A stretch of DNA of 34,630 nt from contig JANWLA010000008.1 of assembly GCA_025451075.1 (NCBI GenBank), forward strand, positions 1-34,630, given 5' to 3'. Below the pieces are notes generated by a model that did not search any database, had not been told where the DNA came from, and saw only the letters and a list, made by a program, of their open reading frames with translations. The stretch's first letter is position 1. Each line of letters begins with the position of its first letter. A program made the translations under genes and the position numbers. This DNA is from Nitrosotalea sp. (GTDB taxonomy: Archaea > Thermoproteota > Nitrososphaeria > Nitrososphaerales > Nitrosopumilaceae). Below, in pieces: positions 24-8,019 of this stretch.

Positions 24-191
24 ATGAATTGCCCAGAATGTGATGCAACAATAAAAATTCCAGACGACGCAAGTGTTGGAGAGATAGTCTCATGTCCTGA
101 TTGTGGGGCAGATTTTGAGATTGCTTCCAAGAATGGCGGCGCATGTGAATTAAAACATGCTGAGAAAGTTGGCGAAGATTGGGGAGAGTAA
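24..191 (+). CDS. lysW: LysW amino-group carrier protein, copy 1 (canonical EDWGE end)
   Basis: This 55-residue acidic carrier protein protects the amino group of glutamate or alpha-aminoadipate during ornithine and lysine synthesis; the substrate is attached to the side-chain carboxyl of the C-terminal Glu (family knowledge). The sequence shows a zinc ribbon with Cys3, Cys6, Cys24 and Cys27, an acidic tail, and the canonical ending EDWGE. I chose ATG at 24 because GAGGTGA at 6-12 makes a good Shine-Dalgarno for it. An in-frame GTG at 9 would lie inside that site. The stop codon (189-191) directly abuts the ATG of the ligase gene, so the two are one translational unit. Pairing with the first ligase suggests arginine/ornithine use, but in other archaea one LysW serves both pathways. 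Confidence 0.95.
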   Translation: MNCPECDATIKIPDDASVGEIVSCPDCGADFEIASKNGGACELKHAEKVGEDWGE

Positions 192-1049
192 ATGCCCAAA
201 GTTCGAATCGTGTTCGACAGAGTAAGACTGGAAGAGAAGATGCTCGAGCAAAAAGCAATCGAGCTTGGACACGATACGAAGATGATCGATGCCAAGACTA
301 CCCAATTTACCACCGAAAGTAAAAAAAATGATTACGATTTCGGAGATGTTGTTTTAGAAAGATGTGTCAGTTACTTTCGTGGTCTTCATTTTACAGCAGC
401 CCTTGAATTTTTAGACATTCCAGTAATTAACAGGACCGAAGTTGCAAACAACTGTGGAAATAAAATGCTGACTTCATTGTTGTTAAAAAAACACAACGTA
501 CCTACTCCAAAAACATACTTTACATTCTCATCAGAAGCAGCAGTTGAAACACTAGAAAAAGACGGCTACCCGCTTGTGATAAAGCCAATCATAGGGAGTT
601 GGGGAAGAGGGGTGGTACCTCTAAGAGACAGGGAGACGGCTGATGCAATAATTGAGGTCAGAGAACTAAATGATGGACCCTTGGATAGAATTTACTACCT
701 ACAAGAGGTTGTTACGCGTCCACCAAGAGACATACGCGCTATATCTGTAGGAGACCAGCTGATCGCTGCAATGTATAGAACGTCTACGGGTGGTTTTAAG
801 ACAAATATTGCTCTTGGAGCAGAACCAATTGCATGTGAGATCACAAAGGAGTTGGAGGATATTTGTATGAAGGCATCAAAGGCAGTAGGAGGTGGAATCT
901 TGGGAATTGATGTCATGGAAGACGAAAAACGCGGATTTGTAGTCCATGAAGTAAATAATACAGTAGAGTTCAAGGGACTAGCAAAAGTTGCCAAAAGAAA
1001 CATCCCAAAAGAAATGATCGACTATGCAATAAGTTATGCCAAGCGATAG
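192..1049 (+). CDS. argX: LysW-glutamate/alpha-aminoadipate ligase, ATP-grasp (ArgX-type, copy 1)
   Basis: A 285-residue ATP-grasp ligase of the LysX/ArgX/RimK family. It joins the alpha-amino group of glutamate or alpha-aminoadipate to the C-terminal Glu of LysW with ATP hydrolysis. Visible features are the N-terminal RCVSYFRGLH segment, the ATP-grasp core (VIKPIIGSWGRG, then RPPRDIRA), and the metal-binding HEVNNTVEF near the C-terminus. It abuts lysW1 with no gap. The second copy at 6025 differs around the substrate region (GRGVVP here versus GRMIAM; VEFKG here versus TEYKN). Because that copy sits behind homocitrate synthase and this one leads into argC-argB-argD, I assign this one to glutamate (ArgX). 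The assignment rests on context and could be reversed, or both enzymes could be bifunctional. Confidence 0.85.
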   Translation: MPKVRIVFDRVRLEEKMLEQKAIELGHDTKMIDAKTTQFTTESKKNDYDFGDVVLERCVSYFRGLHFTAALEFLDIPVINRTEVANNCGNKMLTSLLLKKHNVPTPKTYFTFSSEAAVETLEKDGYPLVIKPIIGSWGRGVVPLRDRETADAIIEVRELNDGPLDRIYYLQEVVTRPPRDIRAISVGDQLIAAMYRTSTGGFKTNIALGAEPIACEITKELEDICMKASKAVGGGILGIDVMEDEKRGFVVHEVNNTVEFKGLAKVAKRNIPKEMIDYAISYAKR

Positions 1050-1112: not shown

Positions 1113-2165
1113 ATGAAAGTCGGTGTAGTTGGAGCATCAGGATATGTAGGTGGAGAAATTCTCAGGCTACTAGTAAGTCACCCACATGCAGAAATTTCAA
1201 TGGTAACTTCAAGACAATATGTTGGAGAATACATCTCCAGAATACAACCAAGCTTGAAGGGATTTACAGACATGACATTTTCAGAACTTGATTATGATAA
1301 ACTAACAGACAAGTGTGATTTGGTATTTACAGCAGTACCACATGGAACTGCAGTAGACATTGTAAAAGCACTCTATGACAGAGGAATGAAAGTAATTGAT
1401 CTTAGTGCAGATTATAGACTACACAATCCTGCAGATTATGACAAGTGGTATGGCTGGCAACATCCACATCCAGAGTTGCTAGAAAAATCAGTCTTTGGAG
1501 TTCCAGAACTTCACAGAGAAGAGATAAAAAAATCACAGATTGTATCATGCCCTGGATGCATGGCAGTAACATCAATTCTTGGATTATACCCATTGATCAA
1601 AAAGAAGATTATTGATACAGAACACATTATAGTTGATTCAAAGATTGGTTCTTCTGGCGCAGGTGCAGGAACCGTTTCAGGTACACACCATGCAATGAGG
1701 TCAGGTGTGATTAGACCATACAAGCCAGCAAAGCACAGACATACCGGAGAGATAGAACAAGAGCTAAGCATTGCAAACGGTGGAAAAATCAAAGTATCAA
1801 TGAGTCCACATGCAGTAGACATCGTAAGAGGAATTCTTTGTACAAATCATGTCTTTCTCAATCAACCAGTAAGCGAGATGGATTTGTGGAAGATGTATCG
1901 TGAGCAATACCAAAATGAAAAATTCATCAGACTGATTCGTGACAAAAAAGGATTTTACAAATTCCCAGATCCAAAGTTTGTGGTAGGTTCCAACTTTTGT
2001 GATGTAGGATTTGACATTGACGAAGACAATAACAGAGTTGTGGTTCTTTCAGCATCAGACAACCTCATGAAGGGTGCAGCAGGATCTGCCATCCAAAACA
2101 TGAATGTCATGGCAGGATTCAACGAAATGGAAGGAATCGCATATTCTCCTCTAACTCCTGTGTAA
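1113..2165 (+). CDS. argC: LysW-gamma-glutamyl/aminoadipyl-phosphate reductase (ArgC/LysY)
   Basis: This 350-residue NADPH-dependent semialdehyde dehydrogenase reduces the LysW-bound acyl phosphate to the semialdehyde, the third carrier-bound step of ornithine/lysine synthesis. The N-terminus has the Rossmann motif GASGYVGGE. The catalytic cysteine is the second Cys (about residue 149) in SCPGCMAVTS, and HRHTGEIEQEL with SPHAVDIVRG are typical of the ArgC/LysY catalytic domain. It is of normal length and is preceded by a Shine-Dalgarno. It is the only reductase of this type in the cluster, so it probably serves both the Glu and the AAA branches, as is known for archaea using LysW. ArgB follows after five bases. 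Confidence 0.93.
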   Translation: MKVGVVGASGYVGGEILRLLVSHPHAEISMVTSRQYVGEYISRIQPSLKGFTDMTFSELDYDKLTDKCDLVFTAVPHGTAVDIVKALYDRGMKVIDLSADYRLHNPADYDKWYGWQHPHPELLEKSVFGVPELHREEIKKSQIVSCPGCMAVTSILGLYPLIKKKIIDTEHIIVDSKIGSSGAGAGTVSGTHHAMRSGVIRPYKPAKHRHTGEIEQELSIANGGKIKVSMSPHAVDIVRGILCTNHVFLNQPVSEMDLWKMYREQYQNEKFIRLIRDKKGFYKFPDPKFVVGSNFCDVGFDIDEDNNRVVVLSASDNLMKGAAGSAIQNMNVMAGFNEMEGIAYSPLTPV

Positions 2166-2170
2166 AAAAA

Positions 2171-2971
2171 ATGATTACAATAAAAATAGGAGGAAGTGTG
2201 GTAGATGGCCTTCATCCTACTACAATATCAGACATAAAAAAAGTCTCAGAAAATGAAAAACTCATCATAGTGCACGGCGGAGGAAAAGAAGTAACAAAAA
2301 TTTCAGAGGCTCTTGGAAAGGAACAAAAATTCATTGTCTCCCCAGGAGGGATCAAGAGCAGATTCACGGACAAGGAAACTGCAGAGATATTTACAATGGT
2401 CATGTCTGGAAAAATAAACAAGATGATAGTTGGCATGCTTCAAAAACATGGAATCAATGCAGTTGGACTCTCAGGAATTGATGGCAAGATAATCCAAGCT
2501 GAGCGAAAAAAGAAACTAATTGTAATGAACGAAAAAGGTCGCAAGATGGTAATTGACGGAGGCTATACAGGAAAGATACGAGATGTCAATACGGGATTAA
2601 TTCAATCCATTTTAGACCAAGGATATGTTCCGGTCATATCTCCAATTGCAATCAGTGAGGAGTGTGATTTTCTCAATGTTGATGGAGACAGAGCAGCTGC
2701 ATATGTGGCAGGCAAGATGAAGTCTGATAGGATACTATTTCTGACAAATGTAGATGGTTTACTCATGGACGAAAAGCTAGTCAAAAAGTTGTCACTGGCA
2801 GAGGCAAAGGAAATTTTGCCAAAGATTGGATTTGGAATGGAAAAGAAGATACTTGCAGCAACAGAAGCCTTGGAGATGGGAGTCAGGGAAGCACTAGTTG
2901 CAAACGGCAAAAAGGAAAACCCAATATCTGCGGCAATTTCTCATGACAATTGTACGGTGATATCAAAATGA
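2171..2971 (+). CDS. argB: LysW-glutamate/aminoadipate kinase (ArgB/LysZ)
   Basis: A 266-residue amino acid kinase of the acetylglutamate kinase family. It phosphorylates the side-chain carboxyl of the LysW-bound substrate. The sequence shows the N-terminal IKIGGSVV and VHGGGKEV nucleotide-binding motifs, a central GLSGIDGKI segment, LNVDGDRAAAYVA, and FLTNVDGLL near the C-terminus, all typical of ArgB/LysZ. The start is five bases after the argC stop, with few other choices. The stop overlaps the argD start (ATGA at 2968-2971), implying translational coupling. Being the only kinase present, it is likely bifunctional. Confidence 0.93.
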   Translation: MITIKIGGSVVDGLHPTTISDIKKVSENEKLIIVHGGGKEVTKISEALGKEQKFIVSPGGIKSRFTDKETAEIFTMVMSGKINKMIVGMLQKHGINAVGLSGIDGKIIQAERKKKLIVMNEKGRKMVIDGGYTGKIRDVNTGLIQSILDQGYVPVISPIAISEECDFLNVDGDRAAAYVAGKMKSDRILFLTNVDGLLMDEKLVKKLSLAEAKEILPKIGFGMEKKILAATEALEMGVREALVANGKKENPISAAISHDNCTVISK

Positions 2972-4143
2972 CAGAAGACCAATTCATGGGAAATATCTAC
3001 CAGAGATTTCCTGTAACAATAGAACGTGGACTTGGAGCCCATGTATGGGATGCAAGTGGAAAAGAGTACATTGATTGCATGGGTGGATATGGTGTAGCAC
3101 TAGTTGGTCACTGTAACCCCCGAGTAGTAAAAGAGATCAAGGCTCAGCTTGACAAAATCATTACCGTACATAGTTCATTATACAACAAGACACGGGAAGT
3201 GTTTCTTGAAAAACTAATTAAAATTTCACCAAAGAGCCTCAGTCAGGTATATCTAAACAACAGCGGAACAGAGGCGGTTGAAGCTGCAATCAAGTTTGCA
3301 CGCAAGTTTACAGGAAAGAAAAAGATGGTTGCAATGAATGGCTCATACCATGGGAAATCACTTGGCGCACTGTCAGTTACATTCAATCAAAAATATCGCA
3401 AGGCATTTGAGCCTCTTGTTGATACAGTGAGCTTTTCATCATTTGGAGATATTGAAGCATTACGAAATACAGTAGATTCGGACACTGCAATGATAATCAT
3501 AGAGCCAATCCAAGGAGAGAGTGGAATCAATGTTGCACCAGATGGGTTTTTACAACAAGTCAGAAAGTTATGTGATGAAAAAGGAATTGTTCTAGTTTTT
3601 GATGAAATTCAAGCAGGTCTTGGAAGAACTGGAAAGATGTGGGCAAGCCAACATTGGGATACAGTACCTGACATCATGTGTCTTGCAAAAGGCATTGCAG
3701 GTGGTGTACCAATGGGTGCAACACTAGTGAGGCCAGACATTTTAGCGTCAATCAACAAGGGAGAACAATCATCAACATTTGGCGGTAATCCATTATCATG
3801 TGCAGCAGGAATTGGAGCCATTGATGCACTAACAGAAGACAAGTTAGTTGAGAACGCAGAGAAGAATGGAAAAATATTCAGAGAAGGATTGGAGAGATTA
3901 AAAGAAAAACACAAGATAATCCGAGAGATAAGAGGTAAGGGATTGATGATTGGAGTTGAGATGAAGTTTGAAGTAAAGGACATATTGTTTGACGGAATTG
4001 CAAATAATTTGTTGTTACTTTATTCTGGTAAAAATATACTACGACTATTACCGCCTCTAGTCATATCAGAGTCTGACATAAACAAAGCTTTAGAAACTCT
4101 GGATGTAATACTAACAAAAGAGGAGCAGAGAAGAAATGTCTAG
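2968..4143 (+). CDS. argD: LysW-ornithine/lysine aminotransferase (ArgD/LysJ), PLP enzyme
   Basis: A 391-residue class III, PLP-dependent aminotransferase. It converts LysW-bound semialdehyde to LysW-lysine or LysW-ornithine with glutamate as amino donor. Motifs seen are NSGTEAVEAAIK, GSYHGKSLGALS, IIEPIQGESG, the PLP-aspartate region VFDEIQAGLGRTG, and the Schiff-base lysine in LAKGIAGGVPMG. A longer reading from 2950 exists, but ATG at 2968 fits the ATGA overlap with argB and the family length. The 3' end overlaps the next gene by eight bases, so argC, argB, argD and the Lrp gene form one tightly packed operon. Confidence 0.93.
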   Translation: MTEDQFMGNIYQRFPVTIERGLGAHVWDASGKEYIDCMGGYGVALVGHCNPRVVKEIKAQLDKIITVHSSLYNKTREVFLEKLIKISPKSLSQVYLNNSGTEAVEAAIKFARKFTGKKKMVAMNGSYHGKSLGALSVTFNQKYRKAFEPLVDTVSFSSFGDIEALRNTVDSDTAMIIIEPIQGESGINVAPDGFLQQVRKLCDEKGIVLVFDEIQAGLGRTGKMWASQHWDTVPDIMCLAKGIAGGVPMGATLVRPDILASINKGEQSSTFGGNPLSCAAGIGAIDALTEDKLVENAEKNGKIFREGLERLKEKHKIIREIRGKGLMIGVEMKFEVKDILFDGIANNLLLLYSGKNILRLLPPLVISESDINKALETLDVILTKEEQRRNV

Positions 4144-4555
4144 AGACAAGACAGACGAGACAATAATTGAGATGCTTAAAAAAGATTCAAGACAGTCTTT
4201 TGTAGAAATTGGTGAAAAACTAGGATTATCAGAATCCGCAGTAAGGCGAAGAGTAAAAAATCTTACAGACGGAGGCACAATAAAGAAATTTACAATTGAA
4301 ACAGGTGATGCTAATTCTACCAGTGCAATAATTTTGATCTCAGTTGATTCATCAACGGATACGTCAAAGGTGTCTGCAAAACTTTCTAAACTGCGTGGAG
4401 TACACACAGTATTTGAGATAACAGGTCAATATGACATTGCCACAATAATCAAAGCACCGACAATTACTGACATTAACGTATGCATTGATGAATTACGAAA
4501 GGTTCCAGGTGTGTTTGACACAAACACTGTCATAATATTGCGCACAGTCACATAA
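4136..4555 (+). CDS. Lrp/AsnC-family regulator (LysM-like)
   Basis: A 139-residue feast/famine regulator. Residues 1-55 are a winged helix (IIEMLKKDSRQSFVEIGEKLGLSESAVRRRV). Residues 65-138 are the RAM/AsnC ligand-binding fold, with VHTVFEITGQYDIATII and VPGVFDTNTVIIL. Sulfolobus LysM, an Lrp protein, regulates the lysW operon in response to lysine, and the location inside this cluster suggests the same job here. The ATG at 4136 lies within the last codons of argD and is preceded by GAGGAG. Directly downstream lies a promoter with three inverted repeats, its most likely target. The ligand is not readable from sequence. Confidence 0.88.
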   Translation: MSRDKTDETIIEMLKKDSRQSFVEIGEKLGLSESAVRRRVKNLTDGGTIKKFTIETGDANSTSAIILISVDSSTDTSKVSAKLSKLRGVHTVFEITGQYDIATIIKAPTITDINVCIDELRKVPGVFDTNTVIILRTVT

Positions 4556-4671: not shown

Positions 4672-5862
4672 ATGGACGATGCAAACTATTACGCATATCA
4701 ATATAATGAGACAGGTGTAAAACCAAAGAAAATTAGAATACTAGACAGTACCTTGAGGGAGGGAGAACAACACCCAGGTGTTACTTTTTCAAACAAGCAA
4801 AGAATTCAGATTGCATGGATGTTAGATTATTTTGGAGTTGATCAAATTGAGATATCACCTATAGTATCTCCTGATCACAAGGAAGCAACAAAAACAATCA
4901 TCAAGCAGGGATTAAAGGCAGATATTGTAGCACATGTTCGTGCATTAAAAGAAGATGTGGATGTTGCAATTGATTGTGACGCTACTTGGATGGCAACATA
5001 TCTTGGAATTTCTGAGATCCACATGAAAGATAAGCTTAGAATTACAAGAGAAGAAGCATTACGAAGATCAGTTGAAACAGTAGAATATGCAAAAGCACAT
5101 GGACTCAAGATGCGATTTACAGTTGAGGACGGCAGTAGAGCAGACCCAGAATTTCTCATGCAAGTCTGCAAGGCAATATCTGATGCAGGTGTTGACAGAA
5201 TTAGTTTACCAGACACTGTTGGAATAATGAGACCAAATGGAATGTATAATTTTGTAAAGTCAATTAGAGAAGAAATAAAGACTCCACTTGATGTGCACTG
5301 CCATAATGATATTGGACTTGCTCTTGCAAATGCATTAGCTGGATGTGATGGTGGTGCAGACCAAATTCACACTACAATAGATGGAATAGGCGAAAGAACT
5401 GGAATACCTGCACTTGCAGAAACAGCAGTTGCCTTGACATATCTATACAAGTCACCAAATAATTTTAGGCTAGACATGCTTATGGATCTCTCCAGATTGA
5501 TTGAGCAGTATACCTCAATTGTTCCCTATGATTCAAAGCCAATTGTAGGGCCCACTGCGTACAAACATAAGGCTGGAACACATCTAGCTGCCATTTTGAG
5601 AAATCCTGCAGCATACGAACCAATCGAACCAAAGGTAGTAGGAAATAGGAGAAGAATTGTCTTCGGAGAACTTGCAGGAAAGAATGGTGCTGCATATTTG
5701 ATGTCACTATTAGGTCTTGAACAAAACGAAGAGCATGCAAAGTCAGTAGCAGCTGGTCTGAAGAACCTAAGGATGGGAGATTTGCTTGAGATACCACTTG
5801 ACGATAGACTTGAACAAAAGATAATTAATGACACAGAAGTGAAGGTAAAAACAGGAAAATAA
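4672..5862 (+). CDS. Homocitrate synthase (LeuA/HCS family)
   Basis: A 396-residue DRE-TIM metallolyase that condenses acetyl-CoA with 2-oxoglutarate, the first committed step of aminoadipate lysine synthesis. The sequence shows LDSTLREGEQHPGV at the N-terminus (substrate and metal site), the metal-binding HCHNDIGLALANAL, the IDGIGERTG loop, and a C-terminal segment with YKHKAGTHLAAIL. The family also includes 2-isopropylmalate and citramalate synthases. Homocitrate synthase is preferred because the gene is directly followed by lysW2-lysX-lysK and has its own regulated promoter after an Lrp gene. At 396 residues it is too short for a full LeuA regulatory domain. No homoaconitase or homoisocitrate dehydrogenase is in the window. 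Confidence 0.87.
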   Translation: MDDANYYAYQYNETGVKPKKIRILDSTLREGEQHPGVTFSNKQRIQIAWMLDYFGVDQIEISPIVSPDHKEATKTIIKQGLKADIVAHVRALKEDVDVAIDCDATWMATYLGISEIHMKDKLRITREEALRRSVETVEYAKAHGLKMRFTVEDGSRADPEFLMQVCKAISDAGVDRISLPDTVGIMRPNGMYNFVKSIREEIKTPLDVHCHNDIGLALANALAGCDGGADQIHTTIDGIGERTGIPALAETAVALTYLYKSPNNFRLDMLMDLSRLIEQYTSIVPYDSKPIVGPTAYKHKAGTHLAAILRNPAAYEPIEPKVVGNRRRIVFGELAGKNGAAYLMSLLGLEQNEEHAKSVAAGLKNLRMGDLLEIPLDDRLEQKIINDTEVKVKTGK

Positions 5863-5863
5863 T

Positions 5864-6028
5864 ATGAAATGCCTAGAATGTGATGCAAACATCAACCCTC
5901 CAAAGGACTCGATGGAAGGAGAAATAGTAACTTGTCCTGATTGCGGTGCAAGTTTTGAGCTTACCAAGGGATCCTCCGGTCTTGAGTTAAAACCAGCACA
6001 ATCTGTTGGTGAGGACTGGGGCCAGTGA
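5864..6028 (+). CDS. lysW: LysW carrier protein, copy 2, with C-terminal Gln (EDWGQ)
   Basis: A 54-residue protein beginning MKCLECDANINPPK and ending VGEDWGQ. Cys3, Cys6, Cys24 and Cys27 are placed exactly as in LysW1, so the zinc ribbon is intact. The start is one base after the homocitrate synthase stop. The stop TGA (6026-6028) overlaps the GTG start of lysX. The oddity is the last residue: codon CAG gives Gln, where LysW1 and the family have Glu, whose side-chain carboxyl is the ligation site. A single base (CAG versus GAG) separates the two. Sequencing error, deamidation before use, an alternative attachment, or a regulatory decoy are all possible. It is not decayed otherwise. Confidence 0.93.
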   Translation: MKCLECDANINPPKDSMEGEIVTCPDCGASFELTKGSSGLELKPAQSVGEDWGQ

Positions 6029-6873
6029 GCTCCGGTTTATCGATTCTCTACGATACCATCAGGTGGGAAGAAAAAGCACTCTTTGATGCCGCAAAGGAAA
6101 AAGGCATCGATGCAAAGATGGTTGACTGTAAGAATCTGTCCATTAATCTAGATAAAAGCAAGGAAGAATATGGAACGGTAATACAGAGATGTGTCAGCTA
6201 TTATCGTAGCCTTCACTCTACTGCAGCACTGGAAGGAAAGGGTGTCAACATAATTAATTCATTGAATACTAGCATCTTTGCAGGAAACAAATTATTCACG
6301 CACATGCTTTTGCTAAAAAAAGGAATACCCACACCATTTAGTGCAGTTGCTTTTTCACAAGAATCGGCACTTGATCTTCTGGACAAAAAGGGATATCCAA
6401 TGGTGATAAAACCAACTGTAGGCAGCTGGGGAAGAATGATTGCCATGCTAAAAGACAAGGAATCTGCAGAGGCAATAATAGAAAGCAGAGAAAACATGTA
6501 TCCAATTTATCAAGTGTACTACCTAGAAGAATTTGTCAACAGACCACCACGTGATATCAGGGCAATAGTAGTGGGGGACAAAGTTGTTGCTGCGATTTAC
6601 CGCTATTCTGGAGAAGCCCAGTGGAAAACAAACATGGCACTAGGTGGAAGAGCAGAGGAACTCAAGGTTACAAAGGAGTTGGAGGATATTTGTATCAAGG
6701 CAAAGGAAGCAGTCCAAGGACAGATAGTTGGAGTAGATCTAATGGAAAGTAAGGAAAACGGCCTTGTTGTTCACGAAGTCAACAATACAACGGAATACAA
6801 AAATACTGTCAGAGTTACTGGCGTAAATATACCAGCAATGATGATTGATTACGCAATGAGCCAAGGAAAATAA
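6025..6873 (+). CDS. lysX: LysW-alpha-aminoadipate ligase, ATP-grasp (LysX, copy 2)
   Basis: A 282-residue ATP-grasp ligase, paralogue of the gene at 192. It is predicted to attach alpha-aminoadipate to LysW. Matching features are RCVSYYRSLHSTAALE, the ATP-grasp core VIKPTVGSWGRM, RPPRDIRAI, and HEVNNTTEYKNTVRVTGVNIP at the C-terminus. The last stretch resembles what I recall of Thermus LysX more than the other copy does. The start is GTG at 6025, four bases inside lysW2 (GTGA overlap), giving strong translational coupling of carrier and ligase. The position between homocitrate synthase, lysW2 and lysK favours the lysine branch. How it handles a carrier ending in Gln is unclear. Confidence 0.88.
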   Translation: MSSGLSILYDTIRWEEKALFDAAKEKGIDAKMVDCKNLSINLDKSKEEYGTVIQRCVSYYRSLHSTAALEGKGVNIINSLNTSIFAGNKLFTHMLLLKKGIPTPFSAVAFSQESALDLLDKKGYPMVIKPTVGSWGRMIAMLKDKESAEAIIESRENMYPIYQVYYLEEFVNRPPRDIRAIVVGDKVVAAIYRYSGEAQWKTNMALGGRAEELKVTKELEDICIKAKEAVQGQIVGVDLMESKENGLVVHEVNNTTEYKNTVRVTGVNIPAMMIDYAMSQGK

Positions 6874-6876
6874 GAA

Positions 6877-8019
6877 TTGGACTCATCAATAACTAGTACA
6901 CCAAGATATTCAGTAAAAGTTCTAGAGAAGGCTCTAAGACTCTATACACCATCGCTTTCAGAAAAACCACTTGCTGAGTTTTTGGCAGACAAGTGTGATG
7001 ATTTTGGTTTTGAAGACATTCGCATAGACGATGTAGGAAATCTCATAGCTATAAAGGGATCTGGACATCCAAGAATAATGTTGTGTGGACACATGGATAC
7101 AGTTCCAGGAAAGATAAAGGTGAGAAATGAAGATGGCTTCATCTATGGTCGAGGGGCATCAGATGCCAAGGCACCCCTAATCTCAATGCTTCTTGCAGCA
7201 GCATCAGTTCAAGGCAATAACAATGGGACAATAACATTTGCGGCAGTAGTAGACGAAGAAGGAAATGCAACAGGAATCAAGAGCCTCGTAAAGCAAAAAC
7301 CAGAGATAGATTATGCAATATTTGGAGAGCCAAGTGGAATTAAAAATATTACAATTGCGTATAAGGGAAGAATTGCAATAAACCTGAGAGTAAATGTAGG
7401 TGATAGTGCACATGCAAGTGCACCATGGCTTGCAAAAAATGCGATTGAGGAATCATATGTATTTACAGCCGCATTGAAAAAATCCCTAGAGCAAAACCAA
7501 GAGGGCCTAGCAAAAAGCATGATGCTTACATCATCTCTGACGGAAATCAAGGGAGGTACTAGCCACAACGTAACACCACTAGAATGTGATGCCATAATGG
7601 ATATTAGGATTCCAGTAAACATGAACTGTAAAATAGTTGGAGAAAGAATTGCAACAACAGTTCAAGAGATTGCAAAAAAACAAGGGGTTAATGCATTTTA
7701 TTCAGTAATAGATGAAACTGAACCATTTGAAGCACCACACAATTCTCCGCTTGTCAGGGCTTTGACACTTGGAATAATGGATGTAGAAAAGGCAAGACCA
7801 CAGTTAATCCGAAAGACAGGCACTGGAGATATGAACATAATAGGAAATTCACTAAACATTCCAGTTGTCACATATGGTCCAGGAGATCCTCATGCATCAC
7901 ATACAATTGATGAAAGAGTCTCAACAGATGAGTTTCTAAGAAGCATCGAAGTTTTCAAGAGGATGTTGTCTCATCTCAGAAGATTACATGAGTTCAAAAA
8001 TCCTTCCACCAAATCCTAA
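6877..8019 (+). CDS. lysK: LysW-lysine/ornithine hydrolase (LysK), M20 metallopeptidase
   Basis: A 380-residue M20-family zinc hydrolase that releases lysine (and probably ornithine) from LysW by cutting the gamma-amide to the carrier's C-terminal Glu. Seen are the metal-binding CGHMDTVPG (His72, Asp74), the bridging Asp in GRGASDAKAPL, the DEEGNATG catalytic pair, EPSG, and the C-terminal YGPGDPHASHTIDE with a metal-ligand His. Start TTG at 6877, three bases after the lysX stop; no ATG gives a full N-terminus. It is the only such hydrolase here, so it likely serves both branches. Its reaction is chemically the same as removing NH3 from a terminal Gln, which matters for LysW2 (inference). Confidence 0.9.
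   Translation: MDSSITSTPRYSVKVLEKALRLYTPSLSEKPLAEFLADKCDDFGFEDIRIDDVGNLIAIKGSGHPRIMLCGHMDTVPGKIKVRNEDGFIYGRGASDAKAPLISMLLAAASVQGNNNGTITFAAVVDEEGNATGIKSLVKQKPEIDYAIFGEPSGIKNITIAYKGRIAINLRVNVGDSAHASAPWLAKNAIEESYVFTAALKKSLEQNQEGLAKSMMLTSSLTEIKGGTSHNVTPLECDAIMDIRIPVNMNCKIVGERIATTVQEIAKKQGVNAFYSVIDETEPFEAPHNSPLVRALTLGIMDVEKARPQLIRKTGTGDMNIIGNSLNIPVVTYGPGDPHASHTIDERVSTDEFLRSIEVFKRMLSHLRRLHEFKNPSTKS

Follow-up and report, generated by a model that had tools for sequence, protein, structure and literature searches.

The first 8 kb of the 34,630-nucleotide stretch of Nitrosotalea DNA analysed here (the window) hold a lysine/arginine cluster, lysW1-argX-lysY-lysZ-lysJ-asnC-homocitrate synthase-lysW2-lysX-lysK (Table 1), and raise the question of how LysW2, a small carrier protein of the kind on which lysine is assembled, can work when its last residue is encoded as glutamine. 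To our knowledge, every carrier studied so far uses a terminal glutamate, which by the accepted rule is indispensable. The gamma-carboxyl of this residue is the attachment group in known LysW charging, and the argW(E54A) mutant of Natrinema is an arginine auxotroph (PMC10433800); the alpha-carboxyl alone is therefore insufficient in that organism.

Table 1. Features of the lysine/arginine cluster in the window.
Feature	Position	Strand	Evidence
lysW1, second carrier, end EDWGE (GAG TAA)	24..191	+	ORF and profile search
argX-type ligase (NNTVEFKG), LysW1 partner	192..1049	+	TIGR02144, 299.8 bits; signature
lysY/argC reductase	1113..2165	+	TIGR01850 above cut-off
lysZ, [LysW]-aminoadipate/glutamate kinase	2171..2971	+	NF010662 above cut-off
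lysJ/argD aminotransferase	2950..4143	+	TIGR00707 above cut-off
Lrp/AsnC-type regulator	4136..4555	+	profile search; in cluster of relatives too
homocitrate synthase-like gene, immediately 5' of lysW2	4672..5862	+	TIGR02146/TIGR02090 matches below cut-off; position conserved
lysW2 carrier, zinc ribbon, end VGEDWGQ	5864..6028	+	ORF; NF041070 and PF21344 above cut-off; 3VPB chain E
EDWG tail motif, LysW2 residues 50-53	6011..6022	+	read from sequence
LysW2 terminal codon CAG (Gln)	6023..6025	+	its G begins the lysX GTG
lysX, LysX-type ATP-grasp ligase (NNTTEYKNT)	6025..6873	+	TIGR02144, 338 bits; PDB 3VPD/1UC8; GSWGR
GSWGR motif of LysX	6421..6435	+	sequence; tail-recognition role from PMC10433800
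lysK, M20 hydrolase releasing lysine from LysW; candidate LysW2 deamidase	6877..8019	+	PDB 5XOY, E 1.3e-44

The initial annotation described lysW2 as an intact gene ending in Gln and coupled to lysX, and this holds: the ORF encodes 54 aa (MKCLECDANINPPKDSMEGEIVTCPDCGASFELTKGSSGLELKPAQSVGEDWGQ) and closes with the codons GGC CAG TGA, giving the C-terminus EDWGQ, and the GTG start of lysX creates a 4-base GTGA overlap. LysW2 contains the LysW zinc-ribbon domain (NF041070, 81.4 bits, cut-off 75; PF21344, 45.3 bits, cut-off 27), its closest solved structure is 3VPB chain E, and it adjoins a ligase with the GSWGR motif, which is reported to recognise the LysW tail (PMC10433800). With the LysW/ArgW carriers of Thermus, Sulfolobus, Thermococcus and Natrinema it shares the zinc ribbon, the acidic tail and EDWG, and its locus shares with theirs the operon of LysX, LysZ, LysY, LysJ and LysK and the GSWGR of the ligase; unlike them, it has CAG in place of a codon for the C-terminal Glu to which substrates are attached, so that nascent LysW2 is without the known attachment group. 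Against the equivalog model TIGR01206 it scores 28.1 bits, below the cut-off of 53.2, in an alignment that ends one residue short of the C-terminus; LysW1 also falls below this cut-off (43.8 bits). The signature of the ligase is NNTVEFKG after LysW1 and NNTTEYKNT after LysW2, and by the rule that Gly-Phe versus Asn-Thr separates ArgX from LysX (PMC10433800) the first appears to be ArgX-like and the second LysX-like. The window LysK matches 5XOY, a known [LysW]-lysine hydrolase of the M20 family, and all of the metal-binding and catalytic residues (H66, D68, D90, E121, E122, E145 and H336) are conserved. LysW2-type tails of ammonia oxidisers (KPAQ.VGEDWGQ) have a second Gln several residues before the end (window 5997-6028), at a position where LysW1-type tails (.AE.VGEDWGE) have Glu (window 160-191).

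Of 400 genomes searched in the order, 277 contain EDWG-Gln-stop; the reversed pattern, run as a control, had no matches, and the Gln-ended motif with its stop recurs adjoining lysX. The sequencing error that the initial annotation had considered is excluded by this prevalence. Counted by hand from the listing, as genomes with at least one Gln-ended match, the ending is found in 205/232 genomes of the window's family (f1), 66/70 of f8 and 6/7 of f2, and in 0/91 of other families; f8 and the f2 genus g23 are probably, as judged from their sequences, the Nitrososphaeraceae-type and Nitrosocaldus-type clusters, and named contigs with Gln ends include, among the matches listed, Nitrososphaera, Nitrosocosmicus, Nitrosopolaris, Nitrosocaldus, Cenarchaeum and Nitrosopumilus. 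GAG in related genomes had been put forward as a finding that would count against a Gln-ended carrier; it does occur in a minority (G162, G295, G333, G342 and G318), but as reversions inside the Gln clade. The gene amoA (PF12942) is present in f1, f2, f3 and f8; the assembly containing the window, which is 85% complete, gave no match, although the gene is present in its genus. We rejected the idea that the Gln end marks ammonia oxidisers, as both carriers end in Glu in the amoA-positive f3 and G047 (f2), and many non-oxidisers have Gln.

Beyond the order, a contig pattern scan and a phylum search found Gln-ended LysW in at least about 20 other phyla among the matches listed, many of these genomes being metagenome bins in which single lineages may be mis-binned. 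The matches listed include the bacterial groups Ignavibacteriota, Pseudomonadota, Acidobacteriota, Bacteroidota, Calditrichota, Chloroflexota, Gemmatimonadota, Sumerlaeota and several Patescibacteria, and among other archaea the Undinarchaeota, Heimdall-, Borr- and Jordarchaeia and further Thermoproteota. Genomes reached through Gln loci have Gln at the end of their sole EDWG[EQ] carrier in 24 of 25 cases (among the matches listed). The Gln end is a widespread trait, not an error, and in some genomes it is the sole form; EDWGQ appears in none of the open-access papers searched, and its novelty is provisional. Separately, some patescibacterial LysW-like proteins ending in EDWGQ are without the zinc-binding cysteines (L149 1274-1291, L176 3203-3220), and two Chloroflexota contigs (G865:C141:6459-6856, G899:C30:40568-40787) have two or three EDWGE-stop matches spaced about 190–200 bases apart, G899 having two tandem lysW genes adjoining lysX.

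Several genomes rely on one form only. Complete amoA-positive genomes exist with exclusively Gln-ended carriers: two lysW genes, both ending in Gln, are present in each of the 99%-complete single-contig genomes G056 and G083, while G041, G049 and G007 have one lysW, Gln-ended, with both argX and lysX present (a second pattern match in G007 is false, ending in TGG rather than a stop, as the pattern TRR also accepts TGG). In one genus a single such carrier is present for ArgX and LysX. In the Nitrosocosmicus-like genus g29 (L093, L094, L095) no lysW was found upstream of argX, leaving one Gln-ended carrier for two ligases; another reading frame runs up to argX there. DapB was found in none of 15 Nitrososphaerales genomes tested, nor in the Ignavibacteria genomes with Gln ends, using a search that was positive in 11 of 14 control genomes. 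The carriers of Gln-only genomes lacking DapB must therefore support lysine synthesis, and in single-carrier genomes arginine synthesis as well; since Gln is sometimes the only form, the cell must either convert it to Glu or have a charging route that has yet to be described. G247 (a single contig) encodes both ligases and a single, Glu-ended carrier, homocitrate synthase being followed by lysX without an intervening lysW. Taken with the Gln-only genomes, it follows that the Glu and Gln forms are interchangeable as sole carriers. At this locus (L110, 2950-3172) homocitrate synthase has a GC-rich, low-complexity extension that occupies the place of lysW2.

The two forms also exchange over evolutionary time. 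Complete LysW ORFs of these archaea, gathered by whole-protein similarity with no requirement on the tail, all end in Glu or Gln, yet single-step codons exist for Lys, Asp, His, Ala or Gly; over all loci, a set partly selected by tail, there are 185 Gln ends, 99 Glu ends and one odd weak match. When the terminal residue is mapped onto a tree of 196 partner ligases, 14 switches between Glu and Gln are counted, at least 11 of them forced by well-supported branches. Reversions of LysW2 to Glu are seen in G162, G295, G333 and G342, a group of g7 genomes whose tails are nearly identical, as well as in G318 and, within f8, in genera g53 and g57; in the g53 cluster that was read LysW1 ends in Gln. 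No ligase column convincingly tracks the terminal residue in 835 column-residue tests, the best of which goes in one direction in about 5 of 11 independent pairs, and GSWGR is conserved in 79/79 partner ligases of Glu carriers and 115/117 of Gln carriers. A weak test of LysK likewise found no tracking residue; columns 64 and 175, which separate the Glu and Gln groups, were discarded as they look instead like the split between archaea and Chloroflexota. The 14 changes are below, but within the range of, those at the third position of the neighbouring Gly codon (57 in total, 12 counting C and G rows alone) in a sample that is not random, and we do not claim strong codon-level selection for Gln.

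The parallel with Pup drawn in the initial annotation is apt. Pup, of the actinobacterial Pup/Dop/PafA system, is like LysW a small protein with Gln at its end in some species and Glu in others, Gln- and Glu-encoded forms both being present among LysW relatives; it is gamma-linked, and Dop both removes Pup and deamidates PupQ (PMC8599861). The likeness is one of analogy alone: the two are not homologous, LysW carries metabolic intermediates whereas Pup tags proteins, LysW is served by an ATP-grasp ligase and an M20 or Ntn hydrolase, and its deamidation is a proposal.

To account for what is directly observed (the distribution, the Gln-only genomes, the restriction to Glu and Gln, the switching, and the intact ligases and LysK), we infer that Gln-ended LysW is a working pro-carrier that is deamidated once, most likely by LysK, and is from then on ordinary LysW-Glu, a reading to which we give a probability of roughly 0.55. 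LysW2 would be made as a pro-form, and the hydrolase that afterwards splits LysW-gamma-lysine is the most likely enzyme to convert its terminal Gln to Glu, since no gamma-amide of this series is simpler than LysW-Gln. LysX would then charge the gamma-carboxyl of LysW-Glu, the carrier would be recycled, and as each release step would restore Glu, one conversion per molecule, even by a slow reaction, would suffice. Selection between Gln and Glu codons would then be weak and other residues excluded; with once-only deamidation Gln and Glu could be expected to swap freely and no other residue to be seen. LysK had been named before as a possible deamidase of LysW2 and, given its conserved M20 residues, it stands as a proposal, although LysK activity may depend on the amino-acid moiety of the substrate. 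If Glu and Gln were fully equivalent, it would still have to be explained why Gln prevails in the window's family, for instance by a slow rate of transversion or by a slight advantage. Nor is Gln universal: in one set of Chloroflexota lysW clusters read, 23/23 end in Glu.

Most bacterial Gln clusters long enough to judge are without lysK, and contain instead a protein of about 215 aa (C2) between lysY and lysZ or after lysJ (24 loci, two of them in archaeal bins). The standard reaction of class-II glutamine amidotransferases releases ammonia from the side-chain amide of Gln. C2 of locus L175 (4266-4910, +), which was aligned with 27 relatives from many bacterial phyla and two archaeal bins (alignment A2), scores 31.1 bits against PF13230 (cut-off 23), placing it in this class, and M1 C2 R3, R75 and N101-G102 are invariant in the 28 sequences. 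It has the Ntn fold, the N-terminal Cys nucleophile and the Arg and Asn-Gly of the gamma-glutamyl pocket; the predicted structure (pLDDT 95) has as its best PDB match EgtC (4ZFL/4ZFJ, E 1.7e-12), a gamma-glutamyl amidohydrolase whose structure has also been solved with glutamine. C2 shares with EgtC and the class-II amidotransferases the fold and the Cys2, Arg and Asn-Gly residues; unlike EgtC, to which it is about 17% identical, it sits in lysW operons without lysK, and it scores 29.8 against the EgtC equivalog TIGR03442 (cut-off 218.65). C2 and LysK were never seen in one locus. A dedicated Gln deamidase, as suggested by the 24 Gln clusters, was rejected: C2 accompanies Glu-ended LysW in seven Bacteroidota/Ignavibacteria clusters, and no homologue was found in the window's genome or in 19 genomes of ammonia-oxidiser families. 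As C2 also occurs with Glu-ended LysW, we regard it as a candidate substitute for LysK in the last step rather than as a Gln-specific deamidase. Release and deamidation in C2 operons could be one activity, given the standard reaction of the family, and in the ammonia oxidisers, these being without C2, LysK is the obvious candidate for the deamidase. Among the open-access papers searched, none connects LysW and lysine biosynthesis to a glutamine amidotransferase or to EgtC. In L174, L177, L180, L242 and L244 a recurrent protein of about 217 aa lies on the opposite strand about 0.9–1 kb upstream of lysW; it weakly matches the C-terminal part of aspartate kinase and is possibly a lysine-responsive regulator.

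The same mechanism could operate with another cellular amidase deamidating LysW-Gln and LysK not involved. Nothing indicates that LysK accepts LysW-Gln, and class-II glutaminase domains are common in genomes; however, no extra conserved amidase-like gene was seen in the archaeal Gln clusters, no C2 homologue was found in the ammonia-oxidiser genomes tested, and one enzyme would have to exist across all Gln lineages, so we consider this unlikely. Alternatively, LysX and ArgX might use the Gln amide directly, the incoming amino acid displacing ammonia and no separate deamidase being needed, whether by activation of the amide or by a transferase reaction of the ligase like that of glutamine synthetase. 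Glu- and Gln-ended carriers would then both be substrates of one ligase family in archaea and bacteria, as might be expected from the similar appearance of their ligases. Ammonia is, however, a poor leaving group, and we know of no precedent for direct amide use among ATP-grasp ligases, which makes this a rather doubtful solution even though the amide carbonyl of PupQ has been proposed to attack ATP in Dop (PMC8599861).

A third option is attachment through the alpha-carboxyl: an ordinary peptide bond would link the amino acid to the terminal Gln, whose side chain would be irrelevant. LysX does belong to the RimK family of alpha-L-glutamate ligases (TIGR00768), and the family of LysK includes carboxypeptidases, but the strict limitation to Glu and Gln and the auxotrophy of the E54A mutant disfavour such a linkage, and in the window the same LysZ, LysY, LysJ and LysK must serve both LysW1-Glu and LysW2-Gln; we judge it improbable. 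It is more improbable again that the Gln form is a held-back pool whose regulated activation controls lysine or arginine synthesis. Such a role would fit the fact that Gln predominates among the LysW2 proteins of the window's family and, in many Nitrososphaeraceae-type genomes, on LysW1 as well as LysW2; against it stand the repeated reversions to Glu within Gln clades, the presence of Gln on either carrier and the lack of a dedicated conserved partner gene. The control step specific to lysine that the initial annotation had envisaged is in particular unsupported, as Gln is also found on the arginine-side LysW1 and in many other phyla, and several reversions have taken place without visible change in the ligase. 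Finally, although known charging requires the gamma-carboxyl, the suggestion of a non-chargeable decoy that holds LysX is, like that of sequencing error, excluded as a general explanation in view of complete genomes with Gln-ended LysW alone and no DapB, and of hundreds of independent assemblies.

If Gln is encoded at the carrier end in most ammonia-oxidising archaea, and in members of about 20 further phyla, then either an activation like that of Pup by Dop has arisen in primary amino-acid synthesis, or LysX performs an undescribed chemistry. C2, found instead of LysK across many operons of bacteria, may carry out the final step of lysine or arginine synthesis.
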